Below, in pieces: positions 1 through 35,687 of a stretch of 35,687 nucleotides of DNA (the first letter of the stretch is position 1; the number at the start of each line of letters is the position of its first letter). Source of the stretch: a virus. A program made the position numbers and the translations under genes. The stretch lies in the IMG/VR virus record IMGVR_UViG_3300021963_000361, positions 1 to 35,687 of that record, one strand, 5' to 3'. The notes under the pieces are model-generated. The model had not been told where the DNA came from. It did no database searches and worked only from the letters and a program-made list of their open reading frames with translations.

Positions 1-279
1 GTTGCACAAACTAACGTCTCTCTCCTGTCGGTGTCATATGCAACGTCTGCCGATAGGATAGAGATTTTATATGTATACATACTTCGTATGCCATCAGCAA
101 TAATCGATCATGGTAACGTTTACGAAATAATCTACGATCTCGAAGAATGAGAAGACGAGAAAATCATAGACAAGCCATACCAAATCAAAGTATTGTTCCC
201 AGGTGAAATAGGAGTGATCCAGAACTCTACTCCAGAACAAGTACAGCGAATATTATCTAGGCTCTATACGAACGAATAG
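1..279 (+). CDS. 3' end of a gene cut by the left window edge
   Basis: The frame is open from base 1 and ends at TAG 277-279, giving 92 codons with one in-frame TGA (Gly). An internal ATG at 88 would give a 63-residue protein (MPSAIIDHG...YTNE), acidic in its middle (LEEGEDEK), ending in a likely helix (PEQVQRILSRLY). Because the frame stays open to the edge, the real start may lie outside the window. I recognise no family. The C-terminal half from about residue 30 looks like ordinary phage coding sequence; the first 29 codons are less certain because the base composition is more GC-rich there. It is the leftmost rightward gene and may be the end of an operon that begins beyond the window. 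Confidence 0.6.
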
Positions 280-285
280 AATCAC

Positions 286-310
286 CTCCCTGCACGAGGA
301 TAACTGACAG
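286..310 (+). repeat. 25-bp repeat, inverted copy near right edge (35602-35626)
   Basis: These 25 bases match the reverse complement of 35602-35626 with one mismatch (G299). A second short similarity (592-619 against 35641-35665 reversed) lies nearby at both edges, so the two ends of the window share related sequence in opposite orientation. The order of the two blocks differs between the edges, so this is not a simple terminal inverted repeat. Function unknown; packaging, origin or RNA-gene remnants are all possible. Confidence 0.6.
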
Positions 311-330
311 CGTGAGTGTCTCCACGATAA

Positions 331-435
331 AAGAAAGGGACACATCGGTCACATTGCATCGCCTCCTCGTGGCGTGACTGGATAACCAACCAAGATGCAA
401 ACAAGTATATGTGTGAGGCATGTATACAAAAATAA
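331..435 (+). other. Possible decayed zinc-finger reading frame
   Basis: A 34-codon stretch ending at TAA 433-435 reads like the C-terminus of a small zinc-binding protein (RDWITNQDANKYMCEACIQK, with a C-x2-C pair and an upstream H-x0-C). It has no start codon and is preceded by an in-frame TAA at 328-330. It could be a remnant, a chance frame, or part of an RNA element. Otherwise I see no gene in 280-456. Confidence 0.2.
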
Positions 436-456
436 GAGCCTTTCCTTTATCGGAAG

Positions 457-620
457 GGTGATGGAGTGGATATAGAATATCCAAAGAACAATCGGAAATC
501 ACTATCCCCGTGAACGGTAACTCGAGTATCCCGTGAACTTGTTAGCCAGACTACTATCCTTTATTCGCCTTTAGGAATTAGTAGACCAACTGCAAGGTCC
601 AAATCCTTGCCTCCATCACC
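457..620 (+). ncRNA. Structured RNA with tRNA-acceptor-like termini
   Basis: Bases 457-466 (GGTGATGGAG) pair perfectly with 611-620 (CTCCATCACC), and pairing can continue outward by a few more A-T and G-T pairs. Just inside the 3' strand sits a T-arm-like hairpin, GCAAGG-TCCAAAT-CCTTGC (592-610), whose 7-nt loop resembles the tRNA TTCRANN loop. Just inside the 5' strand is a small hairpin GGATA-TAGAA-TATCC (468-482) in the D-arm position. Between them are further hairpins, e.g. CTACTATCCT/AGGA..TAGTAG (551-584) and CGAGT/ACTTG (523-541). At about 164 nt it is too long for a plain tRNA and too short for tmRNA. I could not assign an anticodon. It could be a tRNA with an insertion, a tRNA-like RNA, or a degenerate copy. 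Confidence 0.4.
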
Positions 621-636
621 TTTCTTATAAATATAT

Positions 637-771
637 ATGCTTATAGTATTAAATGAGCAGAAGAAAAAAGAATTAATCGAACTCATAGAAAGAGCTTGAT
701 TTGATAGTTCTAAAAAAGAGATTACAGTCCTTTTAAGAGATGATACTGAGACACTTGTATCTCATAATTAA
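637..771 (+). CDS. Small hypothetical protein (44 aa)
   Basis: ATG 637 to TAA 769-771, with one in-frame TGA (Gly). The protein (MLIVLNEQKKKELIELIERAG...) has an amphipathic, lysine/glutamate-rich N-terminal helix and a short acidic tail. It starts directly after the AT-rich TTATAAATATAT stretch that follows the structured RNA. It is the first gene of the rightward run and lies 42 bp before the small-terminase candidate. No family recognised; it may be an early regulator of the packaging genes or simply a filler ORF. Confidence 0.55.
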
Positions 772-813
772 AGTGATATAATAGTCAAAAGAAAACAATC
801 GTAATACAATCGT

Positions 814-1239
814 ATGGCTTGAGAAATAGAACACTTCAAATGAAAGGATTTTGCACACAATCCTCAAAACATAAATCGTAACGGAAGACCGAAAAAAGGC
901 ATTGCTCTAGTAAACCAGCAACTTGCTGAGAAAGGTTACGATCCAGTCAAGAAAAGTGAAATAGAAGACAATTATCTTGCTATGCTCCAGCTTGAAAGGC
1001 ACGAACTAGAAGCACTCAAAGACGACATAACAAAGCCTTACCTCGTAAACATACTCGCAAAGAATATGCTCTGAGAGCGTGGCTATGATATAATCTCCTC
1101 TATGCTTGATAGAGGTATATGAAAACCATCACAAGTAGTGAACTGAGAACAGAAAGTAGACGTATCAGTTACTGACGAACGTATCAAAGAAATGACAGCA
1201 GAAGAGCTAAGCGCTTACTTACAATCTAAAATGAAATAG
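814..1239 (+). CDS. Putative small terminase subunit (DUF5681-like N-terminus)
   Basis: ATG 814 to TAG 1237-1239, 141 aa, with five in-frame TGA codons. The N-terminus carries NPQNINRNGRPKKG (residues 16-29), the N-P-x-N-x-x-GRPKG signature of phage DNA-binding proteins often annotated as small terminase or DUF5681. A central helical region (residues 45-95) and an acidic C-terminal helix (TAEELSAYLQSKMK) follow. Small terminase recognises the packaging site and feeds DNA to the large subunit, which here lies 12.5 kb downstream (13786). The role is inferred from the motif and length. It could also be a general DNA-binding protein. The next gene begins one base after its stop (TAGTATG). Confidence 0.55.
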
Positions 1240-1240
1240 T

Positions 1241-1549: not shown

Positions 1550-1565
1550 TTGGTGAGTGTTTTTC
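1532..1565 (+). terminator. Rho-independent terminator
   Basis: The hairpin TACTCATC (1538-1545) / GGTGAGTG (1552-1559) is flanked by A-rich sequence upstream and TTTTT downstream (1560-1564). It ends the 637-1549 operon, overlapping the last codons of the upstream gene. Confidence 0.75.
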
Positions 1566-1566
1566 T

Positions 1567-2591: not shown

Positions 2592-2600
2592 CGTTTACGT

Positions 2601-2791: not shown

Positions 2792-3733
2792 ATGGCAACT
2801 ACAACAACGCTCGCCACTATTCGTACTGCTTGTTACAATACAATCAAACAGCCTGAGGATTGTGCTGCCTATCCTTATGCTCTTATTGATATATTCATTA
2901 ACAAAGCACACACGAATATCTTCGGTGGTACTGTTACTGATATAGTAAGTGGGCAATCACTCGTTAAGAACAATATAAACTTCGCTGATAAAACAGCGTT
3001 TTTCACGTCTGTAATGCCAACAACTCTCTCTGCTACTGCAACAGTAGGAGCAACAAGCGTAACAGTGTCTAGCACGCTCTGATACCCTACAAGTTGAGCA
3101 CTATGGATTGAATGAGATATTATAACATACACAGGGACAACAAGCACAAGCTTCACAGGTATCCCAACAACGTGAGACGGGTCTCTCAGCTTTGCTTGGA
3201 CCTCTGGTACACGTGTATTCGCTCTCTACTCACTCCCTACTGACTTCCTACAGCTTACAAGCGTAGACTATCAATCCACTCCGTGAGGCTCTCTCATTCG
3301 TATGGTTGGTGTAGACTATCGAGACGTAAAGAATCAAGTGCTTAATCAACAGCTCTATCGTTTCTTCCGTGCTGACTACTCAATAGCAAATAATCAAGAG
3401 AGGTATTTCACACTTGTACACGGTCAATATTTCCTTCCATTCCTGCCTCAATCTGGATACGCTCTGAGATTTGAGTATCAAAAGACTCCAACGAATCTTG
3501 TGCTATCGAGCGACATATCATCTATTCCTGATCAATACGTTCTCAATACTGTGCCTTACCTGGCTACATGAGAGATGCTCTTCAATCGTTGAGAAAGTGA
3601 CGAAGGTATGAAGCTCTTCAAATTCGGATACTTGAACGTTCGTGATATGTATCGATTCTACAACACACAATGAAAGGACTTGATATACAATCAACGTATA
3701 CGTACAGCGTCTGATGGTTACATAAATATATAA
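2792..3733 (+). CDS. Virion structural protein, probable head-tail/tail connector region
   Basis: ATG 2792 to TAA 3731-3733, 313 aa, seven in-frame TGA codons. The N-terminal 70 residues look helical and adaptor-like (TLATIRTACYNTIKQ). Residues about 80-115 follow the phage beta-sandwich pattern in which alternating Thr/Val strands lead to IEGDIITYTG and FTGI, often seen in phage neck and tail proteins. The C-terminal half is aromatic-rich and ends GYINI. It is the first gene of the operon driven by late promoter 1. A neck or tail-completion role is inferred from position and composition; no exact family is named. Confidence 0.7.
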
Positions 3734-3978: not shown

Positions 3979-5556
3979 ATGTCTTTTGCTTCTGCCAAGT
4001 TCATACCGCTCCAAGACAAAATAGGGTCAATCTTTACAGGCTGAGTAGTAGACAACTCACCGCCAAACGTAATCCCTTACTCTAAGACTCCATATTCAAG
4101 AAACTTCCGCGTCAATGCTGGAGGTATTTCTGTTCGTCCTGGCTTCATCGAGCAGGCTTCACTCTGAGCGACTGGAGCTGGAAAAGGAATGGTGAGCTAT
4201 ATACGAGCAACAGCAAGCAATGATTCAATCATTTGTCGCTTCAATACAGATGCTACTCATAAACTAATAGGAGTTAATCCAAGCACGTATGCTACGACTT
4301 CTATCCTTACTGCTGGCAACATTGCTAGTGACAATAGAATGACTTTTGCTACTGCTGGTGATGCTGTCTATTGTATGAATGGATCAGATGGTTATGGTAA
4401 ACTCTCAGGAACGACTTATACAGTACCTGCCACGTGAGTCGTCTGATTCAATCCAAAGTTCTGAGTATGGTTTAACAACGCAATGTGGTGTGCAGGAACG
4501 TCCGCTAATCCAACGCGTCTTTATAAGTCTGTTGAAAACAATGCTGACGACTTTTCTTGAGCTGGCAGTGACTACTTTGACGCTGCCTTTCCTATCGTTG
4601 GGCTTGGTCTTGGTGGACAAACACTCTACATATTCACAGAGCAAACGATTGATATGATAAATACTTCATCTATCAAACAAATTGGCTCTAGTCTTGTCTA
4701 TACTTCTATCCCACTCGAATCAAAAGAGGGAGCGGTCAATCATAAGTCTATCGTGAACGTAGGGAAGAATCTCTATTTCTTGACGAAGTCTAACAAGATA
4801 AACCAAGTAGTACCAAATCCTATCGGATGATATGATGTTCTCGAACTCTCTCACAAAATAAACGATGGAATCAATGTAACAATGGCTACTCTTGATTCGG
4901 ATCAGAGTGATTCATGGGCTTATGCACTCCCTGATAAACAGCTCATTAAATGGCACTTAAAGAGTGCTGGGGCTACGTATCCTGATATATGTATCATCTA
5001 TCACTTTGAATACCAAGAGTGGATGGTGGACACAAACAAATCATTCTACGATGGTTGCTGGTATAAGAACAAATCATATACAATCTCTGCTCTTAATCCG
5101 AGCTTCTACCAAGACGAATACTGATACAGTGACGATGATGAAGCAATACAGTTCGAATATAGGAGTAAAAATCTAGACTACTGAGACCCAACAGTCAACA
5201 AAGAACTCTGGCAATCTAGGCTCTTTCTCAATATGAACTCTGCTACAAGCCTTGAACAAAAGATATATGCTGATGGTGGACTGGTAGACTCAAAGACAAT
5301 AAACTCCTCTCTCATTCCAAATATCGCACAGGGTATAGGAACGAAAGCAATAGGAACGTATGCAATCGGTGAAGACTGACAGCCTGAAGATACTCAGTAC
5401 GACCTCTCAATCGTGAGAGAGAAAGGGAATCTCCAAGTACGTGCTAAGTATTTTCAATTCATCTATCTTTGCTCTACTATCGGTGCGAATTTCCTCATTA
5501 AACGTCTTGATACTCGTATTCAATGACTTGATGAGCTTACTACCTCAACAAACTAA
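3979..5556 (+). CDS. Tail/stabilisation protein, podovirus gp10-like
   Basis: ATG 3979 directly after the upstream stop, to TAA 5554-5556, 525 aa, about 11 in-frame TGA codons. The sequence starts with a variable N-terminus leading to FRVNAGGISVRPGF, then repeated short beta-strand blades with Trp, Tyr and Gly (GLGLGGQTLYIFTEQTID, KNLYFLTKSNKINQVV, DSWAYALPDKQLIKWHL). This is the look of the beta-propeller tail nozzle or packaged-DNA stabilisation proteins of podoviruses such as P22 gp10. The C-terminal 120 residues (AKYFQFIYLCSTIGANFLIKRLDTR) fit that family's closing beta-sandwich. It lies between connector and adhesin genes, consistent with a tail role. Assignment is by pattern, not by search. 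Confidence 0.55.
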
Positions 5557-5559
5557 TAT

Positions 5560-7299
5560 ATGGCACAACAATACGCTTCTGGCGAAACGATGCGTCTCAC
5601 TCTCAAGCTTACTCCTGCTGCCACGTCAATGACGTGAAACAAGGATGTCGGGACTACTTCTGGTCGTTTCTTCTTGTCGAACAATAACCAAGTGGAATGG
5701 ATAAGCTTTACAGGCAAGACAAACAATGGTGACGGTACATATACGTATACTGGTCTCACTCGTGGTCTCTCGCAAACAGCTGACCCAGTAACAGGTGGTA
5801 CAGGTTCAACGTGGCTTGCGAACCAAGAGTGTATTCTCGTAGCAATGCACGACCAACTTGTCGACAAGACACAAGCAACTACCTTTGCTGATACTATAAC
5901 ATTCGCAAAGAATGCTAACTTTACATGAACGAATACTGCGTGATTGACTCTCAAGTCACTTACAACAGCTCAAAGAGATGCTCTCACGCCAAATGTTGGT
6001 GATAAGATCATAAACACAACTACTGGTACTGAACAAACATACTATACTGGTACATGGAACGATGCAGGTACAAGTACCACTCCAAATGCTAGCACGACTG
6101 TAGATGGTAAAGTAGAGATTGCTACACAAGGTGAGGTAGATGCTGGTAAACAGATAGGATGAACAGGTGCTTTCCTTACTGTTTGACCTGATACGTTTCT
6201 TGCATGAGTAACTCCAGCAATAAATATTAACTCTCTAACTGCTAAACCAGACCCAGTAGGAGCTGACTACCTCCTATGAGCGGATAGTGCTGCTTGATTT
6301 GCTAGCAAGAAATTCCTCTTATCAGTTTTAAGTGGTTATATGCTACCGTTCTACTGATACGCTACTGATGGAAATGTAACTATAAGTACAACAATAACTC
6401 TCACGAGAGATATGTACTACAATGACCTAACAATTTCTGCAGGTGCCACATATAACCCAGCTTGATTTAAAGTATTTGTTGCATGAACGCTTACTATATC
6501 TGGTGGAACTATACAAAATAACTGATCAAATGCTTCGACCAGTACGTGAGGTGCTGGATGATCTGGATGAAATACTTGACCTAACGCTACTACGACATCT
6601 CCTGGAAGTAACAGCAGCAATATTACAAACACAGCTATTACTATAACGGATGCATCATGAGCTGCATGAGCATGCGGAAATTTTGCTCGTGCTTGATGAT
6701 CTGCAGGTACAAATACTGCTTATATTGGAATATCTAATTCAATGGTAAATCAAATTTTATCATGAATATTTGTTGGTACAAGTGGACTAAGCGTTAATGT
6801 ATTAAATCCAACTTGTGCTGGGGCTAGTGGTGGTTCTGGAAACTCAGGATGATTAGGTGGTGGCGGCGGATGATCTGGTGGTAAAATTATATTTATTGCA
6901 AAGACAGTAAATATAACATGAGGAACAATCAATCTAAACGGTGGAAATGGTTGAGTATGATCGAATACATCTAACGCTCAGGCTTGAGGTGGAGGTGGTG
7001 GATGATCTGGATGAGTTCTTATGTTCTTAACAGAATCAATTACTCGGTCTTGATGAACCATATCTCTTATCTGAGGGAATGGATGAAACGCTGGTATAGA
7101 TACAACAACTGGATACGGTGGATACGGTGGTAACGGTGGTATGGGCGGTAGAGTGTATGTTATTGCTAAGTCTTGAAGTATTGGTTCATGTACACTTACT
7201 GGTGGTGCGGCTGGTGCGCTTGGTACTGGTGGAGCATGAAACGGTGCGGCTGGATCAGCTTGATCTACATGATCTGTAATCACTGCTACATACTCATAA
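5560..7299 (+). CDS. Glycine-rich tail fibre / adhesin
   Basis: ATG 5560 to TAA 7297-7299, 579 aa, with about 37 in-frame TGA codons. Residues 1-130 are a virion-attachment-like beta domain containing GDGTYTYTGLTRGL, a motif common at the base of phage fibres. Residues about 290-579 are very rich in Gly, Ala, Ser and Asn with long near-poly-Gly tracts, as in polyglycine-II receptor-binding tips (T2/S16 gp38-type adhesins) and other phage adhesins. Many of these glycines are encoded by TGA, including two TGA TGA pairs. It probably binds the host surface. In the standard code this gene is only fragments. Confidence 0.75.
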
Positions 7300-7528: not shown

Positions 7529-7936
7529 ATGCTGGAATTTAAAACAGCGTACAAACAAGACGGTACTCTCAGGAAAATTCCAGGGAGTGACCGTTTTGTT
7601 GTTCAAGAACCATTCGTATGGGAAATAGACTATGAACTCAAGAATAAAGGGAAAGTAGTCGTTCCAGCTTGATTCTGAACGAACTTTTGAAGCGTCCCCG
7701 CTCTATGCCGTGCCTTCTTCTCTCCTACCAAATACATATCGTATGTTCTTCACGATTATCTCTATACACAATGAAGTGTAATTGAGTATAATGACGGTAC
7801 TAAACGTAGTGCAACACAAGAAGAAGCTGATGAAATACTCTGATTCGCTCTCCTCGCTGAGGGAATGAACAAAGTATGAGTCGTTATTGTCTATCTCACC
7901 TTGCGTGCTTTCTGAAAATATAATTATAACAAATAA
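7529..7936 (+). CDS. DUF1353 family protein
   Basis: ATG 7529 to TAA 7934-7936, 135 aa, six in-frame TGA codons. It carries the DUF1353 signature: VVVPAGFGTNFGSVP (residues about 48-62) followed by YISYVLHDYLY and a C-terminal helix with ADEILGFALLAEGM. The conserved glycine of VPAGF and two neighbouring Gly are TGA, which supports the recoding. DUF1353 proteins are common in phage genomes near tail and lysis genes. Their exact function is not established, though the HDYLY motif suggests a metal site. The stop overlaps the next start by one base (TAATG). Confidence 0.85.
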
Positions 7937-10900
7937 TGGCAACTCCTATCTCTCCAACTCCTATGCTTCCGAAATGGAACTATGGAACTGCTGACGCTCC
8001 AGTCACAGTACAACAGCCAAGTAACGATCCAATGCTGACAAAGCACGTAATTAACCAAGTGAACAACTTGGGATTTAATGGTTCACAGACTGCAGCAATA
8101 GCATCGAATGCACGTCAAACTGGTGTAGCTCCTACAACGTATAACGCTCAAACAGGTACAGTCATTGCTCCACAAGCAAATAGTGCTTCACAAGCTATAG
8201 CAAGTGGTATTAAACAGACTCCTCTACCTAGTGTTACTCCTATTTCTCCTAGCACTACGAGTGTAAATCCAGTCACTCCTACTGTAACGCCTATAACTCC
8301 TACCGCTGGAACAGGTTTAACAAGTGGAAAAACAGCCATTTCTCCGCTTTGAACTACGCCAAACACACAAACAGGCGTATCCACTACTCCAAACACTACT
8401 ACGGGTCAATGAATGGGTATTAGTGACAGTGATTTCAACACTATCCTCAATTCTATTGATCCAAATAGACTCTATACAAACGAACAGAAGAAAAGTCTTC
8501 GTGATACTCTGAGTAAAAGTACAGCTAACACAGCAAAATCACTCGATCTTCAAACAACTGGTGCAAAGACAGCAATGGATGAGTACAAAGGTATTGCAGA
8601 TGCTTGGAGAATGCAAAGAGATATTGTCGATCAAATGGATACGAACAACATAATGAACCAAAGACAGGTTCAAGACTTGACTCGTCAATATACACAAGCT
8701 ATCGATACACAAAAGCAACGTATGGAAGCGGATGCAAACAATATGAGTGTTATGCAAGGCTCTACTGGTCGTCTTTCGTCACGAAATATGATCAATGCTA
8801 TCCACCAAACACTTGATAACAATACGAAAGTCTACAATGACCTCATAAGTCAACAAGATGTCATGACAAAGCGTCTTGCACAAGACTTAGATATGGCTAC
8901 AAAGACACTCTCGAAAGCTTATAATAATGCAGTTAGTGACGATATGCAACAAGCACTCAAGGGAATCAATGCTCTTGATGCTACTGGTGCTATGAATACA
9001 AAGGCTGGTCTTATACAAGCTCGCTCTGTTATTGATAGCCTCATGCAAAGCAAGGTAACAAATCTCAACTCTTACTATCAAGGTCTGAATGTTCTCAATG
9101 AGAAGTATAAAGCGTATAGTGCAGAGGCAACAGCACAAAAGAAAGTGGATCAAGACCTCACAAAGACAATGAATGATGGCTATCTCTATAATGCAAATGG
9201 TACAAAGATAGTCAATGACTCTGGTGTTCCTCTTACTTACAATCCACAGAAACAAATCGAAGGTACTGTTAAGAATGACGATGGCTCTACTACTATCCTC
9301 TATAAAGATGGTACTTTTGACACAAAACAATTCGGTGGTACTATTGGTACAGAGGCAGTTGCCGGATATGCCCAGCTCGTATCACAAGGTCGACTTTCTC
9401 TCAATGATGTTCCTGCATCTATACGTTCAAACGTAGCAATGCAAACAAGCCAGATGCCACAAGCTGGACAATGGGAGTTCCAGAATATTACCGATGCTGA
9501 TGGAAATACTCGTACTGTTCAATACAACAAGACGACAAATGAAATACGTGATCCTACTACTGGGCAAACAATTCCAATGTGAGCAGGTTGATTAACTGGT
9601 GCTTCTGGACAATCAGGTGGATTTGGAAACATAGCAAAGATGACAGCAATGAGTGAAAGCGGTGCCGACTATGGTCGTGTAAGCTCTGGAAAGTGAGATG
9701 CTGGTGGTGTAAGCTATGGAGCATACCAATTATCAAGTACACGATGATCTGCACAAGCGTTTATCGATACTATGGGATATAGTAATGTATTCTCTGGTAT
9801 GAAGCCGGGTACTCCTGCATTCTCTGCTAAATGGAAACAAATGGCACAGGATAAGAACTTCCAAGATGCACAAGATCAATACGCACAGCAAACATACTAC
9901 GAGCCATTCAAAGAGAAACTTGAAAACAATGGTATATCTGTATGAAATCGCTCAGACGGTGTACAAGCTCTTCTCTTCTCTACGTCTAATCAATACGGAA
10001 AGAATACAAACGTAGTAAATGACTTTGTAAAATCTGTATGAGGTAAGGATGTAGTAAATAATATGAGTGATCAGGAGTTCATTAAGAAATTCAGTCAATA
10101 TAAGATTGATACAGTCAATTCATACTTCAAAAGCTCTTCACAGGATGTTAGAAATGGTGTAGTGAATAGATTCAGACGAGAGCAAAATCAAGCTATCGAA
10201 CAATCGAATCAACCAACAGGACAATACAGTCCAGAAACAGATAAGAATCTGGAAGCAGTATCACAAAATGCAAATGGTGTAAATTATCTAGACAAGACAA
10301 CGAATCAGGTCATTACAGCACAGCAAGCAATGGATAAGTATGGAAAGGTTGCTAGTGAGCTAACTACTGGTGCTAATGGAAGTAACTACAACGATCAACA
10401 AAGGAATTTGATGCAAGCAATGAAAGACCAAAAGATCACGATGAGTAACATGGATGACAAATGAGTAAAAGCAGCAATGAAAGCTGCTAATGTTGGTATA
10501 AATGATTACAGTGCATTCTTGAATACAAAAGAGCTTACAAAAGTACAATGAGCAAAGGAATATACTGATAACGATGTAAGCGTACTCTCTGCGATAGCTG
10601 ATATGACAAATGTAGCAGAACAGAAGAAGTCATTACAAGATAGCGGTCTTGACCTACTGGACTTGGCTAAATTTAAGCAATGAGAGCTACCTGCAACATT
10701 TACACAGAAAAAGAATGCGTCAGGTATTATGAAAGATATACAAGACCTTGCAAAAATGGACTGGAACGATGCTACTGGTATTGGTCTTTGATTTACTACG
10801 CCTGGTACGGATAAGGCTAATGCAATTGCAGCAATAGATTCACTTAAATCTAAACTTACTCTTCCTAATCTTGGTCTTCTAAAGGGTGCTATGTCGGATA

Positions 10901-11202
10901 ATGATATGAAGTTCATTACTTCCGCATCTACTACACTCTCGACTGATCAATCAGATGCACAATTCGAAAAGAATATGGTGAAGTATTACAACATATATGC
11001 AAAAGCATTGTGACAACCAGAGGTAAAGAGTATGTCTGATATACAAAAAGCAAATATCACAGCACCACAACAAATGCAACCAAATCAGCCATCATCTCCT
11101 ATTACTACCTCGTCAGGTTTCAAGTTTAATCCTGGTGCTACTACTCCAAGTAGTTCAATTCTTCATCCAGAGGAAGCTTCTCAATTAGATTCTATATTCT
11201 AA
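7936..11202 (+). CDS. Large internal virion protein with putative murein hydrolase domain
   Basis: ATG 7936 to TAA 11200-11202, 1088 aa, about 14 in-frame TGA codons. Residues 95-130 are a Pro/Thr/Ser linker (SVTPISPSTTSVNPVTPT). Residues 160-400 are a long Gln/Asn/Lys-rich helical region. Residues about 565-745 form a domain starting MTAMSESGADYGRVSSGKGD and continuing GGVSYGAYQLSS, the pattern of virion-associated lysozyme/transglycosylase-like domains, with Glu at about residue 575 as candidate catalytic acid. The last 330 residues are again helical. Such proteins are injected with the DNA and open a path through peptidoglycan. It sits next to another ejection-type protein. Confidence 0.65.
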
Positions 11203-11212: not shown

Positions 11213-13540
11213 ATGCTAACAAATGAAGAGCTAGACTTGGCAAAACAAGTCAAAGCACAATGAGGTACTAAGGAAGATGCAATGGAAGTAATTGCACACT
11301 ATAGGAGTAAAGCACAAGCACCTGCAACAGCTCCGTCAAAGCCTATATTTCAAGATACTCGCCCAGATGAGGGTATCTTAGAGCAAGGTGCTAAGTCTAT
11401 TGGACGTGGTATAGCTGATACAGCACAATTCGCTCTCTGAGGTGCTGAACAAACTGCTCGATGAATACTCAACGTCGCTGGTCGTCTTGGTAGCACAGCT
11501 GGTAAAGCAGTACGTAGTTGATTAGAGAGTGCTGGAGTGAACGTACCAACCGTACAATGACTCAAACCGTGGGAACCAATGAAAGAAAATGTATTTTCAA
11601 ATACTATTGGTGCTGCTAAAGAAGCTACTCTTTGAGATCAATCATTCTCTGAAGCCTACAAGGAAGCAAACAAAGCTGATGTAGAACGCTATGGTAATCA
11701 ATGAGTTGGTTGAGACTTACTCGATATAGGAACTGGTATACGAAAGGCGTGAGTATCCGTAGCCGCTCCTTACGCGACTGCTGCATTCTCTACTGCTGCC
11801 AATGCTCCTGGTGTGCAATACATACCACAAGGTATCAATGCAGCTCTTATGGCTCCAGTCAACTACGCTGATAAGACTTTTGACCTATGAATGAATGAAT
11901 GAGCAAAAGAAAATGTAGCGTTCAATCTTGGTATGGGTCTCACAAAACCTTTTGCAAAGACTCAGTTATGAAATACTACAGGACTTGCAAAGTATCATGA
12001 AGCAAATGATGCAGTAATGTCTCCTATTGTTAAGCCTGTACAACAAGTTGGTAAGGTAGCATTAGAGAAAGGTGGACAAGTGGTACAGCAAGCAAAACAA
12101 GGCACAAAGAATATGATTGATGAGTCTCTTATAGGGATTGATAAATCAAAGCGTGCTGCGTATGAATCTAATCCATATCTATGATGAGAAAATGGGTATG
12201 TAAAACAACTTACAAAGGAAATGCAAAGTCCTGAATGAATTGCAGATATAAAGGATACTGTAACTAGGCATGTGTCTAACCTTGCTGATGAAGTTGTAAC
12301 AAAAGCAGAACAAGCACGTACAGCACTTACGGAGGATGCTCCTATATATCAAGCTATCAAGAAAATGCCTGTTCAAGTAGAATCGGCTCCTATAGTTTCA
12401 GCATTTGAATCTGCTATTAGACAAAAAGGTCTTGATATTGTTGATTGAAATGTAGTACGTCCAGAATGAAGTGCTGGTGGTAAGATTACAGCAAGCGATA
12501 TATGAAAGATAAACCAAGTATATAGAGATATGCTTGCTGATAGTAAAAAAGGCTATCTTACAGCTGAAGAGATGCTACAATCTCGTAAGAATGCTGACGG
12601 TAAAGTTAATTGGAATGATCCACTCAGTACAGATGGTGCAAACTTGATAAAACAAATGCGTGCTATTATTGATAGTCATGCAAAAGAGAAAATACCTTGA
12701 CTCAGACAAATAGATAAACTCCATGTAGACCAATTAGATAAATTTGATAAAGCAACGGAATGACTCATACAAAAGTGAGGTGCTAATAAGTGAGAGGTAA
12801 GAGACAATATTGTCAACATACTGAAAAATCTTAATAACTCTGCTAAGTCTAAACTCAGTGAAAGACTATCAGAGATAATGCCTGAGCTATCATCAAAAAT
12901 AGAAGCAATCAATATGCTTCCTGAGATATATAAGAATCTTGCAAAGAGCGAGGTGGAATGATGAAGAGCTGGTAATAAAATAGCAGGTGCTACAGTTGGT
13001 TGAACAATTGCCGCTACATTGTGACCTCTTGCTATACCTATTGGTAGTCTTATTTGATTCTTTGCTGGTAACGCTATAGGAAAATCAATAGCAAACGCAA
13101 AGATTAAAAGAATTATTCAAATAGTAGATAGTCTCACTCCAGAACGTCAAAGCGCTCTCAAAGCTATTATTGAAAAGACTCAACAATGAGAAGCACTTAC
13201 AAAAGAACAAGTACGACTCAAAGAAGAAATAATGAGTAAGGTACAAGAGGAAACTGTTCGTGGAAAAGTATTCCCGAAAGAAAAGAATCTTATGCTTCCA
13301 GCTCCGAAAGAATGAAGTCTTCCTACTCCTATAAACGTACAATGAAAGGTTATTCCAAATGAATGATGAAAAATACTTGCCAAACCGTCAGATAAAGAGA
13401 TAATAACTCAGAGCAAGCAAGAACTTAAACAAAATTCAAATGGATATAATGTCGTGAATAATAGCCGCAACAATAACGTGGTGGCTCCTAAGCGTACTAA
13501 GGTAGTACCAAAGAAAACAAAAGTATCTCCTAATAAGTAA
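11213..13540 (+). CDS. Internal virion / DNA ejection protein with hydrophobic segment
   Basis: ATG 11213 to TAA 13538-13540, 775 aa, more than 30 in-frame TGA codons. The N-terminal half is Ala/Gly-rich with alternating helices. The middle is charged and coiled-coil-like (EVRDNIVNILKNLNNSAKSKLSERL). Residues about 591-625 form a glycine-zipper membrane segment (AGATVGGTIAATLGPLAI, then PIGSLIGFFAGNAIG). The C-terminus is basic and Asn/Lys-rich. Size, amphipathic helices, one membrane-inserting stretch and its place before terminase fit an ejection protein that helps carry DNA across the envelope. Named family not recognised. It is the last gene of the first late operon and ends in the arm of a terminator. 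Confidence 0.65.
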
Positions 13541-19266: not shown

Positions 19267-19273
19267 TTTTCAT

Positions 19274-19762: not shown

Positions 19763-19771
19763 TTCAATTCT

Positions 19772-20260: not shown

Positions 20261-20270
20261 TCAATAATAT

Positions 20271-21281: not shown

Positions 21282-21356
21282 TACGTAGTGTAAGAGACCT
21301 GATCTTAGTCTATAAATCGAGAACGGAGGCGGGGGAAATTCTAAATTTACACTCAT

Positions 21357-22262
21357 ATGGCTTACAACGCTAATTCGTCCTATGGACAGGCGGTAGCAAT
21401 GAACCTTACTCAACAAACATTCGGTAAAACGTTCATTGTTCAACCAACTACATATCCAAACGTGGATATGATCACTGATATTTTCCAACCTGACTTCAAC
21501 GGTGTAGTTCGTGTCTACAATACTATCTCTGCTGCACTTGCTGCAACTACTGCTGGTAATGGCGACACAATTATTGTTGCTCCTGGATATACTGAAACAA
21601 TCACTACTGCTGGTGGTATCACTATTGCAAACTCTGGTGTATCTATTATTGGTATGGGAAAAGGTAATCTCCGTCCAATCATTACCTTTACAACTGCTGT
21701 TGCTGCATCACTCAGTATCACTGCTTCAAACGTAACACTTCAGAACCTTATCTTTACGTGTGGTATCAACAACCAGACTGCTATGGTAAACGTAACTGCT
21801 GTTACTGACGTAACAATTCGTAATTGTTACTTCAACGTAGCGACTGCTGGTGCTGTTGGTGCTTCTACCGTAATCAAGGCAACTGGTGCTTCAGACCGTC
21901 TTATTGTTGACTCAAACACAATGATTGGTGTTGCTGGTACAACTGGTACTACTTCTATTGGTTACGTTACATACACAACTGGTTCAGAAATCCAGATTAC
22001 TAACAACTATATGTCTGGTAAAGCTACACAGCTTATCAGTAATACTGCTACTGCTCTTCGTGGTTTCATTGATAACAATAAGCTCGTAGTTGGTACTGGT
22101 ACTGTCGCAATCAACCTTTCTGCTGCTTCTACTCAGTTTATTACAAACAATCGTATCAACGTAGCTTCTGGTACTACTCCAGTTACTGCTGCTGCTGGTT
22201 TTGTTGCTGGTAATGCATTCAGTAACGCTGCTGGTGTGACTGCATCTGTTGTTACATGGTAA
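21357..22262 (+). CDS. Right-handed beta-helix virion protein
   Basis: ATG 21357 to TAA 22260-22262, 301 aa, no TGA. After an N-terminal cap and FNGVVRVYNTISAALAAT, residues 70-290 show repeated turns of the pectate-lyase type beta-helix: SGVSIIGMGKGN, ASNVTLQNLIF, VTDVTIRNCYF, ASDRLIVDSNTM, GSEIQITNNYM, STQFITNNRI. Such folds occur in phage tailspikes, head fibres and glycan-binding appendages. I see no clear Asp/Glu catalytic cluster. Its place directly after the major capsid gene and its lack of TGA suggest a high-copy head-associated fibre. A 75-bp gap separates it from the capsid gene. Confidence 0.7.
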   Translation: MAYNANSSYGQAVAMNLTQQTFGKTFIVQPTTYPNVDMITDIFQPDFNGVVRVYNTISAALAATTAGNGDTIIVAPGYTETITTAGGITIANSGVSIIGMGKGNLRPIITFTTAVAASLSITASNVTLQNLIFTCGINNQTAMVNVTAVTDVTIRNCYFNVATAGAVGASTVIKATGASDRLIVDSNTMIGVAGTTGTTSIGYVTYTTGSEIQITNNYMSGKATQLISNTATALRGFIDNNKLVVGTGTVAINLSAASTQFITNNRINVASGTTPVTAAAGFVAGNAFSNAAGVTASVVTW

Positions 22263-22741: not shown

Positions 22742-22767
22742 CTCTTCCCCTAGCAATAGGGTGAGAG
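22742..22767 (+). other. Stable hairpin between capsid and lysis genes
   Basis: CTCTTCCCCTA (22742-22752) pairs with TAGGGTGAGAG (22757-22767) across a GCAA tetraloop, with one mismatch and one G-T pair. There is no T-run after it, so it is not a clear terminator. It may protect the capsid mRNA from 3' decay, limit transcription into the holin gene, or act as an RNase site. Confidence 0.45.
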
Positions 22768-22793
22768 AATTGAGATTTATAACTCTTCATAAT

Positions 22794-23105
22794 ATGGAAC
22801 ACTTCCTCGCTTTTCTCGACTCAATGAAAGAGAATATAATCATACTTATCATCTCTTGATTTGGTGGTATAGCACATAAGATATACCACCTATCTAAGCC
22901 AAATAGCGTCGAGGTGTTCTCATGGGCATCTCTCTTCGCTAATATGGTACTTGCTTGATTCATAGGCTACATTGTAGCTGGATTTATTGATCACGATAGC
23001 AAGCTCTACTGACCGACTCTCTCTATGGCTTGATTCTGTGCTTATCCTCTTCTTGCTATACTTGAGAAGCAATGTGGTAAATATTTATCTAAGTTTCTTA
23101 AGTAG
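22794..23105 (+). CDS. Holin
   Basis: ATG 22794 to TAG 23103-23105, 103 aa, four in-frame TGA codons, so invisible in the standard code. Three hydrophobic stretches are visible: NIIILIISGFGGIAH (residues 14-28), WASLFANMVLAGFIGYIVAG (about 44-63) and LSMAGFCAYPLLAILE (about 76-91), with a charged C-terminus (KQCGKYLSKFLK). Size, topology and position directly upstream of the endolysin fit a phage holin, which opens the inner membrane at lysis. Several TGA glycines lie inside the membrane helices. Confidence 0.75.
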
Positions 23106-23206: not shown

Positions 23207-23229
23207 GTTTGTACTTTAACTATAAAAGT

Positions 23230-23907
23230 ATGTTCAAAGAGACTTTTTCAACTGCAAATGTTACTCCATGAAAAAATACTTGTCAATTCATAATTTTGCA
23301 TCATACGGGCACAAAAGACGGTACTATCAAAGGGAATATAACCCAACTAACCGTGTGACCTGTTTCTTGCCATTATATCATTGATACGAATGGTGACGTA
23401 TATAAGATAGGAAAAGATGAGCAAATTATGTGGCACGCATGAACCTCTTCGTGGAAAGGAATGAAAGGAATGAACAACTATTCTATAGGAATAGAAATGA
23501 TTTGACCGACTGACACCATCCCAACTGGCTTCACACAAGCACAAAGGGACTCACTCGGTAAACTCCTCAAGAAGCTTATGGATGATCATGGAATACTCCT
23601 CAAGAATATTCTGCGTCACGCTCATATTGCACCAGGAAGAAAAACAGATATTGCTCCAAGCTTCTATAATGGAAGTAATAGTGATACACTTGAGAAAGAT
23701 TTGGTTAAGTTTCAATCTTATATTGCTACTCTCCTAACTCCTACACTTATGGAAGACAACACAACACAATCTAAATTCAAGTCAATCTACGAAAAAGAAC
23801 GTCCTACAAATTACACTCCTCTCTATTCAGAACACGATGATCCAACTCCTGCTACGATCGGAGATATAAAATACCTCCTCGAAATAGCAAATATTCGTAA
23901 AAAGTAA
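23230..23907 (+). CDS. Endolysin, N-acetylmuramoyl-L-alanine amidase (Amidase_2)
   Basis: ATG 23230 to TAA 23905-23907, 225 aa, four in-frame TGA codons. It has the full Amidase_2/PGRP pattern: FIILHHTGT (zinc ligand among His24/His25), SCHYIIDTNGDVYKI (residues 46-60), MWHAGTSSW, NYSIGIEMIG, and ILRHAHIAPGRKTD (127-140) with the second zinc His130, plus Lys138 and Asp140. It cleaves the amide between MurNAc and the peptide stem. The C-terminal 75 residues (about 150-225) are charged and may bind the wall. It follows the holin genes with its own promoter. The TGA glycines sit at conserved positions (e.g. WHAG). Confidence 0.9.
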
Positions 23908-24860: not shown

Positions 24861-25265
24861 CTAATCGAATGATTTGATAAATTCAATCGCTTCATATGAT
24901 CCGTGGCAAAACTTTGCACTCACTCACTCTCTCTTGTCTAGATAGTTAATCCATTCAATCTGTTCGTCTCAGTATACTGATCCATTCATCCCACCTCTAG
25001 GCGTGCGCGACTTCTTCAACTCAATGAAGAGTAGTTGCTTCGGGTGACAAATAATAAAATCAGGAACTCACTTATTCACTCACTCTCTCTTGTTCTTTGC
25101 TTTGACTCACCACGACTTTGTGAAAGTCTCAGATGGTACTTTTGAGAACATAATACTTCGCGCTCGTAGATAGTCTGCTACAATGACTGTATGCTGGCTC
25201 TCTGAGAGAGTTGAGTCAAGACTTACTTCCTCACAAGCTCAGAATTGAGTCTTTATTGCTTTCAT
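24861..25265 (-). CDS. VRR-NUC domain nuclease
   Basis: ATG 25265 to TAG 24861-24863, 134 aa, eight in-frame TGA codons. Residues about 68-90 read GVPDFIICHPKQLLFIELKK, the VRR-NUC core: G-x-P-D with Asp, then hydrophobic strand, then E-x-K (PD-(D/E)xK nuclease). Downstream are SVYGDEQIEWINYL, matching the family's S-x-x-Q-x-x-W motif, and a final strand. Stand-alone VRR-NUC proteins are common in phages and are thought to be Holliday-junction or flap nucleases. The first Gly of GVPD is a TGA codon. The start overlaps the preceding gene by 13 bp. Confidence 0.88.
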
Positions 25266-30250: not shown

Positions 30251-30796
30251 TTAAAGTAGCCATTCAATTTCTGGATTTCAAGAATATGATTTATCCCAAA
30301 TATACCAAGCGTATGCAATAGTTCAAGAGTTCTTCGGCTCTGGCTCTCCATCTGGATACATAGTAACTCTCTTGCAAATAACATATACTTTTTTCAATGG
30401 GGTATTCTTAAAAAAATCATATCTATCTGCTGACTCTAGGAACTGTAATTTCAAAAGCATTATAACATTATCAGATAATTCTAAACTTTTTAATATAAAA
30501 TCTTTTGCACAAAAGTACGGTGGGTTAGTTATGATGGTATCATATTTATCATTACAGTTGAATATATCAATTCATTTCTCTCAATATACTCGTTCATCAG
30601 TTCTTATATCTTGTGACTTTACAGAATAACCATACTCTTCTAGAACTTTTGATATAGCTCACGAGCCACTTGCTGGCTCTAATATCGTTCACGATAGTGA
30701 AATGCTATCTAGAAGTTTCTTTATTACCCATTGTGGGGTTTGATAAAAATCAATTCAATCAGATTTTTTTCTACCAGAAATTGATATTCAATCCAT
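30251..30796 (-). CDS. SAM-dependent DNA methyltransferase
   Basis: ATG 30796 to TAA 30251-30253, 181 aa, nine in-frame TGA codons. Motif I is LEPASGSGAISKVL (residues 39-52) with the last Gly as TGA. Motif IV is TNPPYFCAKDF (90-100), the NPPY of N6-adenine/N4-cytosine methylases. DFYQTPQWVIKKLL (16-29) is the typical lead-in of phage class I methylases. KLQFLESADRY follows as in compact phage enzymes. It probably modifies phage DNA to resist host restriction. Only the core fold is present, with no recognisable target domain. It lies 5 bp after the gene upstream and 18 bp before the membrane protein gene. Confidence 0.85.
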
Positions 30797-31215: not shown

Positions 31216-32409
31216 TTATTGAAATGAATATTTAGATTTGTTTTTTAACCGTGCGTTGTAACCATGGAATGTACCACCAATTCATCCTGCTCGATCCATT
31301 GCTTCTATGTATCTCTCGTGACACCAATCAATCTTTTCTTTCCAAGTCGGGAGTGATTTGTAATAGGCGATTTTATCTTTATGCCAAAAAGAATTGTATT
31401 GGCAGTAACCGTAAGCATAGTCTCATACCTTTGGATGATTAACGTCTCAGATAGACTCACTATCCCATCGTGACTCTTGATCTATAGTTAGAATGAAGTC
31501 CATATCTTTCCACTTGTTCCAAGCGTAGTTGACACTATCAAGAACTTCTCCATCTCTGAGTAGTACCTCTTTCTTTTTTTCTCAACTAAGAAGCGAAATG
31601 AAATTATCTTTCGATCCATACCAATAAGTTAGACTCTCCTTATCAGACTTCGGTCACCATTCTCTGTGTGCTGATACGCTATCAGTCGGGAGTGAGTATC
31701 TCTTTTGAATATCACGTGTAAGTTCTACCATTGATTTGGTCTGCGCATCTGTTGGTTTATCATTCCCAACAAAAGCGATCTGAATAAGTCGGTGATTGTT
31801 ACTACTCCACTTATCTGCTGCTGCAATACATCGCTCGTCACGAGTGTTTGTTATCTCACCATTCTCCTTGATAACATAGTGATAGCCGATATGGTCGATA
31901 CCAAACTTTCATTCGTGTCATCGTTTGATTGCAGCAAGAGTAGAACCGACTGTATCCGTGTAGTGAAACTCAATACCTTCTACCTTACGATCTCGTACTC
32001 AGAGTTCACACTCTAGCGAAAGACTCCTATCTTCAGCGAGGTTTTGTGTTGTGTGTTCGGCAGCTCCTGAACTGGCAGGAGCAACCGTTCAAACAACTAC
32101 TGACCCGCTACCAAATTCTTTCTCAATCTCACTATCAATATCAATGAGTGGCTTGGTATCTTTCTCAAGACAAGAGAGTTTATAACGAGCTATCTCAATG
32201 GCGCTACCTTTATCAAGTGACTCTGTCTCACATACTGACTCTGCTATCTTATTATTCATTTCAATACGAGCATTCGTCTCTTTGAGTTGCTCGATCTTAT
32301 TCTGTTTCATCTCTTCTCTTGTTGGTGTGCCTGATCAATAAGCCATATATCCAAATGCTCAAATGATTATGAGAGCCATAATTAATAAGCCGATATTTTT
32401 ATGATTCAT
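31216..32409 (-). CDS. Membrane-anchored amidase / lysozyme-like fusion protein
   Basis: ATG 32409 to TAA 31216-31218, 397 aa, 11 in-frame TGA codons. Residues 5-25 are a membrane anchor (IGLLIMALIIIGAFGYMAYG). Residues 30-100 are a coiled coil. Residues 145-260 form an Amidase_2/PGRP domain: IEFHYTDTV (His149), IDHIGYHYVIKENGEI, LIQIAFVGNDKPT, SAHREWGPKSD (His248). Residues 300-397 resemble a lysozyme/lytic transglycosylase: FILTIDQESRWDSES (Glu312), YAYGYCQYNSFWH, then MDRAGGIGGTFHGYN. Two cutting activities on one tethered chain, expressed from the early leftward operon and separate from the late endolysin. Confidence 0.85.
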
Positions 32410-33397: not shown

Positions 33398-33403
33398 GTA
33401 GCA

Positions 33404-33432: not shown

Positions 33433-33471
33433 AAGAAAATACAAAGAAAGAGAAAGAAATAATAAAGTAAA

Positions 33472-34041: not shown

Positions 34042-34043
34042 AT

Positions 34044-34241
34044 TTATAATTGTGTATTTTGTTTTGCCCACTTTCTCCACCATTGATAGTCTTTATTCTT
34101 CGATAATGGGAGTGGATAATCGTTTGGATACATTTTGTAATATTCTCGCTTTTCTGCCAAAAATTGTTTGGCTTCATCTGGAGTCATTTTTGGTTTTGCT
34201 CCTATCTTGATCCAAGAATTATGTTCAGAAAAGTAAAACAT
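34044..34241 (-). CDS. Hypothetical protein (65 aa)
   Basis: ATG 34241 to TAA 34044-34046, no TGA. Overlaps the upstream stop by one base (TAATG), which fixes the start (an upstream TTG frame would overlap more). Aromatic and basic (DEAKQFLAEKREYYKMYPND, SKNKDYQWWRKWAKQN). The x-YPLPLSK motif is shared with the zinc-finger protein downstream, suggesting partners or paralogous tails. Confidence 0.72.
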   Translation of the reverse strand: MFYFSEHNSWIKIGAKPKMTPDEAKQFLAEKREYYKMYPNDYPLPLSKNKDYQWWRKWAKQNTQL

Positions 34242-34732
34242 TAGTATTTTCAATAAGTATTTATAAGCGAATCCATATCAAGTTTGTCCTCTGTCGGAAG
34301 TACAAGTTCTCTCTCTGCAAAGAATTGATAAATATCATTAAGGTACTTTGTAAACCCTTTTACAGAAAGCTCTTTTGTGCTTCATTCGATATTCACATAG
34401 TTACGCTTTCAACCTATCTTTACGAGTTTACGCTTTGATAGGAATCTCATCTTCATGAGAGCGTGAATTGCATCTTTATTATTCCCTGTTATTTCTGATA
34501 CCACTTCCATCCATTTCCAATAGAGAGCATTTTGGAATACTGTACGCTTCACTTCTGGCTTTGGAATCAATCATTTCGCTTGGAGTAATGCAATCATTCT
34601 ATTACAAGCTTGTTGTAAGTCTTCTCACTCTGAACTAATGTTGTAAGAGTAGCGAATCAATACTTTGTTCATTCAAATCTGAATATCTGCAAAGTATGTT
34701 TGATTGTCTATTTTTATGAAGTTAGGAATCAT
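34241..34732 (-). CDS. NinB/Orf-like recombination protein
   Basis: ATG 34732 to TAA 34241-34243, 163 aa, eight in-frame TGA codons. Residues 62-82 (VKRTVFQNALYWKWMEVVSE) then ITGNNKDAIHALMKMRFLSK follow the NinB/YbcN pattern (N-Q-x-x-Y-W...G-x-x-x-E-x-x-H-x-x-L-K-x-x-F-L). The STKELSVKGFTKYLNDIYQF (about 127-146) with ELVLPTEDK matches its S-T-x-x-L-[ST]-x-x-x-F-x-x-Y-[IL]-x-x-I...LP tail. NinB (Orf) helps RecA-type recombination by binding SSB-coated DNA. The start at 34732 follows a TAG-T-ATG junction; an in-frame ATG at 34909 is possible but would overlap the upstream gene. Confidence 0.65.
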
Positions 34733-34733
34733 A

Positions 34734-34949
34734 CTAAGATATAGATACAGAATATGGTATTTTTCAGAATCAATATAGTGGATCTCAATTAAAGTTTTCT
34801 GCAACAATTGGAAGTTTTGAAATATTTTTGAGATATGAGTCTTTCTTGTCTTGAATTTCATTCATAGATTCTCATTCAATACATATAACGATTGAATTTC
34901 ATCTATCATTAGGAAACATTTTATATTTCATAAGATATTTTCTATACAT
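34734..34949 (-). CDS. Hypothetical protein (71 aa)
   Basis: ATG 34949 to TAG 34734-34736, five in-frame TGA codons. Basic N-terminus (MYRKYLMKYKMFPNDRG) then beta-rich and acidic region (NSIVICIEGESMNEIQ) and GDPLYGFGKIPYSVS. The junction TAG-T-ATG couples it to the NinB-like gene. A longer reading of that gene through this region is a competing frame; I prefer two genes because the junction matches others here. Family unknown. Confidence 0.65.
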
Positions 34950-34951
34950 AT

Positions 34952-35239
34952 TTATTCAATTACTTCAAATAGCCAAACAGTGATCTGATTCTTTGTTCTC
35001 GTATCGAGGAATGCTTTCTTGTAGTCCATAGCAATCTCTTCCATAGTTGGACGGTCTGGTATCCTGTACCCTCGCGGGTAGCGTGGATCTTTTTGTGAGA
35101 ACTTAATCTGGTTGTATCGGTTGTACTTCGCTATGTTATACTTGCGTACATATCAGCAAAGTATTTTGTATTTTATCGGGTCGTTCAGGATGGTATAGAG
35201 GCGGATCATTGTAGTTTGTTTAACACGGTAAATAGTCAT
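34952..35239 (-). CDS. Hypothetical basic protein (95 aa)
   Basis: ATG 35239 to TAA 34952-34954, one in-frame TGA. Very basic and tyrosine-rich (MTIYRVKQTTMIRLYTILND, YKILCGYVRKYNIAKYNRYN), so probably nucleic-acid binding. The start overlaps the upstream gene by 67 bp if that gene reads through TGA; alternative ATG at 35209. In a standard-code ancestor the start would sit in a classic ATGA overlap. No family recognised. Confidence 0.68.
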
Positions 35240-35433
35240 CTGAGCATTTGCTCTGAGTTGTTGTAGTTTCAATTTATAACCTTTTGTATTGCTTCTTCAA
35301 CCTTTGGAATACGTTCAAGGTCTTTCTTTCTCTCAATTGCCTTTCGGGCTGTCTCTACTTTGAGACGTTGAGCGAGAACAGTATGGTATATTTCACGGTT
35401 TTCTGCAGAAGCGAAAGGGCTTGGATTGAACAT
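35173..35433 (-). CDS. Hypothetical protein (86 aa), first leftward gene
   Basis: ATG 35433 to TAA 35173-35175, four in-frame TGA codons. The N-terminal 55 residues form a long helix (AENREIYHTVLAQRLKVETA, RKAIERKKDLERIPKVEEAI) and look real. The last 31 residues beyond the TGA at the ATGA overlap (LRGLFTVLNKLQGSASIPSG) run in a frame overlapping the next gene. It is the first gene seen at the right edge, so likely the promoter-proximal gene of this leftward group. No family recognised. Confidence 0.6.
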
Positions 35434-35640
35434 ATTTGTATTTGTTAGTTTTTCATTAAAACCACTTTATCCGATAGTGGGAAACGGGCTAAAAAAATAA
35501 CATCCGTCATTTTGGCAATTACTAGTCAAGTAAATATGTATTTATCGCACGTTGACCAAGTGTACGCTACATACCTTTCGGGCGTGTCGTCGGTAGGGAC
35601 ACTGTCAGTTATACTCGTGCAGGGAGTTCTCAATATGAGA
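35434..35640. other. Leader/edge region without a supported gene
   Basis: On the minus strand a weak terminator-like hairpin (AGTGG/CCACT reading 35480-35476 / 35466-35462 with TTTT at 35461-35458) lies 25 bp before the ATG at 35433, again possibly an attenuator. TTGACT at about 35531-35526 lacks a good -10. GTGTC/GACAC (about 35602-35584) forms another hairpin. The region is more GC-rich than its neighbours. On the plus strand a frame from 35526 is open to the edge and, if the molecule is circular, into the gene at 1-279. Confidence 0.35.
35602..35626 (-). repeat. Inverted copy of the 286-310 repeat
   Basis: Read on the minus strand it matches 286-310 over 25 bases with one mismatch. It lies 14 bp from the tRNA-like arm at 35641-35665. 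Confidence 0.6.
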
Positions 35641-35687
35641 GTGATGGAGGCAAGATTTGACTTGCAGGCAATTATCTGCTGAATTTG
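35641..35687 (-). ncRNA. Partial tRNA-like 3' half cut by the right window edge
   Basis: Read on the minus strand it gives GCAAG-TCAAAT-CTTGC then CTCCATCAC, the same arm plus acceptor-like 3' end as the RNA at 457-620, with a 6-nt instead of 7-nt loop. The window ends before any anticodon arm can be read. The bases just upstream on that strand (CAAATTCAGCAG) contain a TCA triplet in a loop-like setting, but I cannot show an anticodon stem. It may be a second copy of the element or a truncated tRNA gene. Confidence 0.35.

Follow-up and report, generated by a model that had tools for sequence, protein, structure and literature searches.

Phages that follow genetic code 25, in which UGA is read as glycine, have already been published for Absconditabacteria and Gracilibacteria (Liu et al. 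2023, PMC10746230; PMC13059738). The phages of Liu et al. are said to share the code of their hosts, and code 25 is contrasted with code 11 in a main text that names neither CGA nor CGG (PMC10746230); the main text of the paper on phage RSA-ATP1 likewise contains no mention of these two codons (PMC13059738). In Absconditabacteria, CGA and CGG reportedly stand for tryptophan, in addition to UGA for glycine (PMC8629427), a reassignment of the arginine codons that is also given for Absconditabacteria/Absconditabacterales (PMC13092985), and some Gracilibacteria may likewise have CGG = Trp (PMC8629427). The present study concerns the IMG/VR record IMGVR_UViG_3300021963_000361, the whole of which (35,687 bp, linear, possibly incomplete) is called the window here, and the reading of UGA, CGA and CGG in the window and its relatives. 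We consider it likely that one tailed-phage lineage crossed at least two times between hosts with CGA/CGG = Arg and hosts with CGA/CGG = Trp, all decoded members having UGA = Gly, and that this lineage holds the first phages shown to use the full triple code (UGA = Gly, CGA = Trp and CGG = Trp).

It has long been asked whether an altered genetic code shields cells from viruses. Phages can cope with a reassigned stop codon without much difficulty; a reassigned sense codon, by contrast, spoils many of their proteins. Related phages on both sides of a sense-codon change open the survival of such a crossing to comparative study and, if the reading given here is true, a host that reassigns a sense codon does not thereby shut out a phage lineage permanently.

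UGA as a glycine codon

Open reading frames (ORFs) of at least 100 amino acids (aa) cover 0.33 of the window under the standard code and 0.84 of it when TGA is taken as sense; the readings with TAG or TAA as sense were rejected, their gain in coverage (to 0.48 and 0.47, respectively) not being comparable. Shuffling the window in 60 first-order Markov draws, with TGA as sense, gave a mean coverage of 0.20 and a maximum of 0.29, with no ORF longer than 454 aa, against 1088 aa in the window. The claim of the initial annotation that nearly every gene contains in-frame TGA was borne out in a hand-picked set of 54 code-25 ORFs, 46 of which contain it (for ORFs of 100 codons or more, 30 of 34), with a total of 277 TGA among 11,055 codons; the TGA-free genes are clustered, not scattered (capsid block, 18616–22262). 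The accompanying claim that genes never end in TGA follows from the definition alone, because code-25 ORFs stop only at TAA or TAG (37 and 17 ends, respectively). At the same time, the four glycine motifs that had been singled out do hold TGA at the codon level (EPASGS-TGA in the methyltransferase, TGA-VPD in the VRR-NUC nuclease, VPA-TGA-F in the DUF1353 protein and WHA-TGA in the first amidase; Table 1). Both marks of a code-25 phage, in-frame UGA throughout and far denser coding with UGA as sense, are thus present in the window.

Relatives were collected by query scans with the large terminase subunit (TerL) and the capsid protein, which yielded 21 further UGA-sense records, some of them near-copies of each other; no relatives of the amidase or of the lysozyme domain were found in viral contigs. 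Among the 80 TerL loci kept of 319 matched, all of those with an identity of at least 39% were UGA-sense, and nearly all of those below 39% were standard, the exceptions by the coverage rule being L114, L116 and L159. The last of these (IMGVR_UViG_3300036718_000112), a distant TerL relative (27%) whose coverage rises from 0.42 to 0.91 with UGA as sense, may belong to another, independent lineage of UGA-recoded phages, with code 4 or code 25.

Since ORF length cannot separate glycine from tryptophan, TGA was masked as X before alignment, and the window was decoded against its relatives by a BLOSUM-based score with a local-identity filter, L025, L015 and L020 being left out as duplicates. At 40 well-aligned window TGA, the log-likelihood was +16.9 for glycine, +3.5 for serine and −37.6 for tryptophan, and the residues facing them were glycine in 44 of 117 cases and tryptophan in none; without the filter the tally was weaker (Gly 64/251, Trp 3). 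The TGA of the relatives faced glycine in 182 of 388 cases and tryptophan in 2 when compared with the window residue. Counting TGA = Gly, 55 of 57 codons landed on the expected residue in the filtered decoding of the window. Glycine was the best residue for TGA in all 22 records (the window and 21 relatives), and pooled TGA gave 240.0 for glycine versus −7.6 for serine in seven records with firm Arg reading of CGA/CGG (417 positions) and 269.9 versus −10.7 in four records with firm Trp reading (363 positions; see below). The masked-TGA tally proposed in the initial annotation as a check, which might have turned up TGA mostly facing tryptophan, therefore came out for glycine.

The competing assignment, UGA = Trp (code 4) as in Mycoplasma phages, yields ORFs identical to those of code 25, coverage being blind to the difference, and one TGA of the second amidase does face a tryptophan of T7 lysozyme. 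It was ruled out by the residue tally, in which glycine scored +16.9 and tryptophan −37.6, with glycine first in every record, and the WHA-X position of the first amidase is glycine in five of five solved-structure alignments (WHAG); its probability is negligible. The solved structures are only distantly related, and their remaining alignments, taken one by one, give a mixed picture that in part speaks against glycine: in the first amidase the residues opposite the other TGA are Gly, Leu, Asn, Glu or Tyr, the four in the VgrG3-like domain face Gly, Gly, Glu and Asn of 4noo, the three aligned ones of the second amidase are paired with Tyr or Trp, with Glu and with Ala, and those of TerL face Ile and Asn, with no glycine in the latter two proteins. 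Moreover, the records were decoded partly against one another. The case is carried by the pooled decodings, and it is practically certain that UGA means glycine in the window genes.

Two readings of CGA and CGG

Because CGA and CGG are published as tryptophan codons in Absconditabacteria, TGA, CGA and CGG were all masked and every record was decoded, with one ORF per place and without pairing near-identical records with each other; G001 and G009 had no decodable CGG position. A decoding of all stop-to-stop frames was dropped as noisy from antisense frames: the best TGA scores of L003 and L004 were negative in it, and CGG resembled leucine in L002 and tryptophan in L027 (6.7, 11 positions).

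Seven records read CGA+CGG firmly as arginine (the window, G001, L003, G008, G009, L087 and L088), and four read them firmly as tryptophan (G007, 51.0 vs −21.6 for Arg; G005, 25.8 vs −8.8; G002, 13.9 vs −5.6; L004, 11.9 vs −7.3). The remaining 11 were less clear, mostly because they hold few CGA/CGG codons: the reading was weakly Arg for L091, L092 and L093 and weakly Trp for L006 and G006, and no call was made for L005, G003, G004, L094, L096 and L097. The window gave Arg 8.8 vs Trp −18.1 at 25 positions, with arginine in five of five conserved columns, and its CGA alone gave Arg 8.6 and Trp −19.4 at 21 positions, which leaves it outside the triple code; the signal for CGA = Arg was stronger still in its near relatives L087 and L088. 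Two details of the window decoding fit less well: CGG alone, at four positions only, hardly separated tryptophan (1.2) from arginine (0.2), and CTG tilted to isoleucine (8.3 vs Leu 7.2).

As a control, the decoding was extended to every codon with four or more positions. The seven firm Arg-dialect records, pooled, gave the standard meaning for 61 of 62 codons, the lone departure being TGA = Gly; the four firm Trp-dialect records gave it for 59 of 62, departing only at CGA (Trp 71.7 vs Arg −30.4), CGG (Trp 30.9 vs Arg −12.8) and TGA (Gly). The window alone was standard at 58 of 61 codons, with departures at TGA, CGG (the four positions mentioned) and CTG. CGA and CGG are rare, and the firm Trp set amounts to four records with 60 aligned positions, which leaves some room for an artefact of alignment or sampling. 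Such an artefact is nevertheless extremely unlikely, since the sole departures of these same records are the three published for Absconditabacteria, and the CGA/CGG codons of G007 sit at tryptophan columns of TerL (13/13), the portal protein (10/10) and the capsid protein (11/11, 8/8 and 9/10). The phage family holds two dialects, and four of its records use the triple code published for Absconditabacteria. Gene callers set to the standard code would break such genomes into fragments, and callers restricted to code 25 would misplace arginine for tryptophan in 4 of the 11 records with firm CGA/CGG decoding.

The distribution of the dialects, which were defined from codons independently of any tree, was followed in a four-protein tree (TerL, portal, the product of 19772–20260 and capsid) with CGA/CGG masked and without L006, L091 and L097, near-copies of other rows. 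The window falls in a clade with L087, L088, L092, L093, G008 and G006 (support 100/100). Arg and Trp records are interleaved, giving at least two changes by the firm labels and three when the weak ones are added, and forcing the Trp records into one clade cost 30 log-likelihood units (approximately unbiased test, p-AU 0.0092; 0.0155 with fewer rows). With a single Trp clade rejected, two or more changes of dialect seem to have occurred in the lineage; the tree has no trusted root, and gain of a dialect is therefore indistinguishable from its loss. In disagreement with the four-protein tree, a TerL-only tree put G007 beside G001 and G009; it required four changes with the weak labels.

UGA usage, decoding machinery and the host

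UGA is used very unevenly. It makes up 1 of 81 glycine codons in the capsid block and 145 of 513 in the remaining genes of the plus strand (Fisher p 1e-9). In minus-strand genes it accounts for 131 of 216, a share that some overlapping, doubtful ORFs perhaps inflate; UGA does occur in late genes of the plus strand, though at a lower rate than on the minus strand. Within the capsid block GGT supplies 80% of glycine codons, CGT reaches 0.56, TTA falls to 0.01 and third positions are not GC-rich. Because the choice of glycine, arginine and leucine codons is skewed alike without GC-rich third positions, this bias looks like codon adaptation. The share of UGA was also lower in the capsid gene and its neighbour than elsewhere in all 10 relatives compared at first (p < 0.03 for every one) and then in 7 of 7 later ones; these records are related and non-independent, G003 and G004 are near-identical, and L094 and L096 entered with the capsid gene alone. 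The highest UGA count of any window gene, 37 among 115 glycine codons, is that of 5560–7299.

UGA is moreover depleted at glycines conserved to at least 95% (odds ratio (OR) 0.50, z −4.96; G004, L006, L091 and L097 left out of these tests). The result is threshold-dependent (OR 0.84, z −1.5 at 50%; OR 0.76, z −2.3 at 80%), and at 95% the depletion was strong for the portal protein (z −4.7), moderate for 17819–18604 (z −2.2) and not significant for TerL, 19772–20260 or capsid; in the window alone the effect was not significant (z −1.6). GGT leans the opposite way, toward conserved glycines (z 2.2 among GGN codons at 95%). That capsid genes and invariant glycine positions avoid UGA suggests poorer decoding of this codon than of GGU.

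No transfer RNA (tRNA) was found in the window. An RF00005 search of 15 records gave three matches that passed the cut-off, and in none of them was the anticodon read as UCA: a tRNA-Met(CAT) in each of two near relatives of the window, G013 (L165 1499–1573) and G012 (L166 1501–1575), and a tRNA-like element in G004 (L066 147–233) with acceptor, D and T arms. The anticodon region of the latter is a stem with a very short loop, from which no anticodon can be read safely; ARAGORN gives Gln(TTG), or Pro(TGG) if an intron is assumed, and never UCA. A sub-threshold tRNA (27.5 bits) in G008 (L067 203–277) has the loop CCA, i.e., Trp, by alignment reading; one may speculate that it helps to prevent tRNA-Gly(UCA) from misreading UGG. 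The RF-1 domain was found in none of the 15 records. Since neither a UCA tRNA nor a release factor was seen in them, decoding of UGA by the host's own machinery is the simplest explanation and a probable one.

These data bear on a scheme proposed for Lak/crAss-like phages, in which the host would have the standard code and the phage would switch code late by means of its own suppressor tRNA. The window is linear and a tRNA gene could lie beyond its ends, as the other records too are possibly fragments, which counts against decoding by the host, and some prophages are reported with a code unlike that of their host (PMC10746230). Code-switching phages are described with the reassigned codon in late genes (PMC11210395, PMC10746230); in the window, UGA is not concentrated in late structural and lysis genes, the capsid block having almost none while the nuclease, methyltransferase and NinB genes carry it, and neither a suppressor tRNA nor a release factor of its own was recognised in these possibly fragmentary records. 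In addition, four relatives have exactly the extra changes of Absconditabacteria, which would be unexpected from a switch made by the phage. A late switch in a standard-code host is accordingly very improbable, and a host natively using code 25 is very highly probable.

It is strongly probable, overall, that the window, a tailed phage, is written in the code of its host (UGA = Gly, TAA/TAG stops, CGA = Arg). In such a cell a tRNA-Gly(UCA) would read UGA and RF2 would not terminate there; the host would be of the Gracilibacteria type, not an Absconditabacterium with CGA/CGG = Trp; UGA would be a tolerated, second-rate glycine codon, kept out of capsid genes and invariant glycines by selection on rate or accuracy; and the lineage would have switched dialect, presumably along with its hosts. 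The initial guess of a host among Absconditabacteria or Gracilibacteria fits the code, its sole basis, and is narrowed by CGA = Arg: because the window has this reading and Absconditabacteria have CGA/CGG = Trp, a host on the Gracilibacteria side is fairly likely, judged from the code. An Absconditabacterium, perhaps of a lineage without the CGA/CGG reassignment, would also use UGA = Gly, the family includes phages with the full triple code, and the weak Trp reading of G006, in the larger clade of the window, comes from one TerL CGG column with 12/12 Trp. The strong CGA = Arg signal in the window, and more so in L087 and L088, is hard to reconcile with the published Absconditabacteria code (PMC8629427, PMC13092985), and such a host is unlikely.

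The host assignment has several points against it. It is tied to no genome, spacer or prophage, and the dialect is an imperfect host label, because Gracilibacteria with CGG = Trp have been reported (PMC8629427). The TerL scan of genome contigs found code-25 DNA only in a public metagenome-assembled genome (MAG) labelled Candidatus Dependentiae AWTP1-30, and a scan of genome contigs with two peptide patterns from the capsid alignment found no relative. The DNA in that MAG is a 43.7-kb UGA = Gly phage contig (L027 / G009:C75), which is probably mis-binned; of two rpoB matches in the MAG, sought as a second, UGA-rich copy, neither has internal TGA, and contamination by a code-25 cell is thus not shown. 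The dialect may nonetheless serve as a host label where spacer matches are missing.

Gene content and comparison with described phages

The window carries a large terminase, a portal protein and an HK97-fold capsid protein, as expected of Caudoviricetes, and represents all, or the larger part, of a tailed-phage genome (Table 1). The capsid protein had no PHROG or Pfam match. A first fold from 7 sequences (pLDDT 35) was discarded in favour of a model from an 11-sequence alignment, which gave 318 PDB matches at E ≤ 0.001 with TM-scores of about 0.3–0.5; among the 50 matches listed, nearly all are HK97-fold phage capsids or encapsulins. The sole match of the putative small terminase subunit was phrog_15125 (function unknown; E 0.0018). 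The minus strand looks like a DNA-metabolism module, because the VRR-NUC nuclease, the methyltransferase and NinB lie there. A lysozyme domain like that of VgrG3 of the type VI secretion system (T6SS; 7936–11202) co-occurs with two separate amidase genes in this one phage.

Table 1 Features of the window
Position	Strand	Feature	In-frame TGA	Basis
1–35687		Whole IMG/VR record; tailed phage, UGA = Gly		Record entry, ORF coverage, codon decoding
814–1239	+	Possible small terminase subunit	5	Guess from the look of the sequence
2792–3733	+	SU10-type adaptor	8	PF24175, E 1.8e-8
3979–5556	+	Virion protein	11	phrog_3287
5560–7299	+	Gly-rich, fibre-like protein	37 (78 GGN)	Fibre role a guess
7529–7936	+	DUF1353 protein	At VPA-G-F	PF07087, E 3.6e-11
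7936–11202	+	Virion-type protein, 1088 aa, VgrG3-like lysozyme domain		PF21277, E 1.5e-48; PDB 4noo alignment
11213–13540	+	Large protein	32	Weak likeness (19–20%) to ORFs of L009, L010, L011
13786–15444	+	Large terminase subunit (TerL)	8	phrog_2, E 2.3e-25; 3ezk
15446–17416	+	Portal protein / head-tail adaptor	5	phrog_332, E 1.2e-15; phrog_156, E 4.9e-8
18616–22262	+	Capsid block, five genes almost without UGA	1 per 81 Gly codons (GGT 65/81)	
19772–20260	+	Conserved gene directly before capsid gene	0	44–54% identity in relatives
20271–21281	+	Major capsid protein	0	Model pLDDT 61, pTM 0.61; matches HK97-fold capsids
22761–23105	+	Holin		PF16083, E 2.5e-7
23209–23907	+	N-acetylmuramoyl-L-alanine amidase, AmpD-like (first amidase)	At WHA-G	PF01510, E 1.5e-26; PDB alignments
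24861–25265	−	VRR-NUC nuclease	At G-VPD	PF08774, E 4.2e-6
30251–30796	−	DNA methyltransferase	At EPASGS-G	phrog_799, E 8.5e-60
31216–32379	−	Second amidase-domain protein	11	PF01510, E 2.3e-15
34241–34909	−	NinB/Orf recombination mediator	7	phrog_72, E 2.3e-16

Podoviridae sp. ctMEh928 (MW202647.1, Manatee Spring) is one of two phage-collection records matched by the window capsid at E ≤ 0.01. Its gene order is similar (TerL, large gene, small genes, capsid); unlike the window, it has intact annotated ORFs in what is apparently the standard code, and the match to its annotated major capsid protein is weak, at just 20.7% identity.

Code-switching Lak/crAss-like phages are reportedly the subject of Borges 2022. 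They share with the window a reassigned stop codon and differ from it in having TAG = Gln or TGA = Trp, often suppressor tRNAs, and standard-code hosts (PMC11210395); in the window no suppressor tRNA was found, and UGA is scarcest in the capsid genes. As far as could be seen, a phage family split across code dialects is new: the literature search found no publication on phages with CGA/CGG = Trp. At the same time, phages predicted to read AGG as methionine (PMC8629427) provide a precedent for phages that follow a sense-codon change.

The window also resembles the described code-25 phages. RSA-ATP1, a phage of Strigamonas (Absconditicoccaceae), is, by description, likewise tailed and written in code 25, with internal UGA in 39 of 65 ORFs of a 39,071-bp genome, and it has four tRNAs including tRNA-Gly(TCA), none of which was found in the window (PMC13059738). 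The phages of Liu et al. and the window are alike in their dense TGA = Gly and far higher coding density under code 25, and they differ in how the host is known, which is linked by CRISPR spacers for the former and deduced from the code for the latter (PMC10746230).

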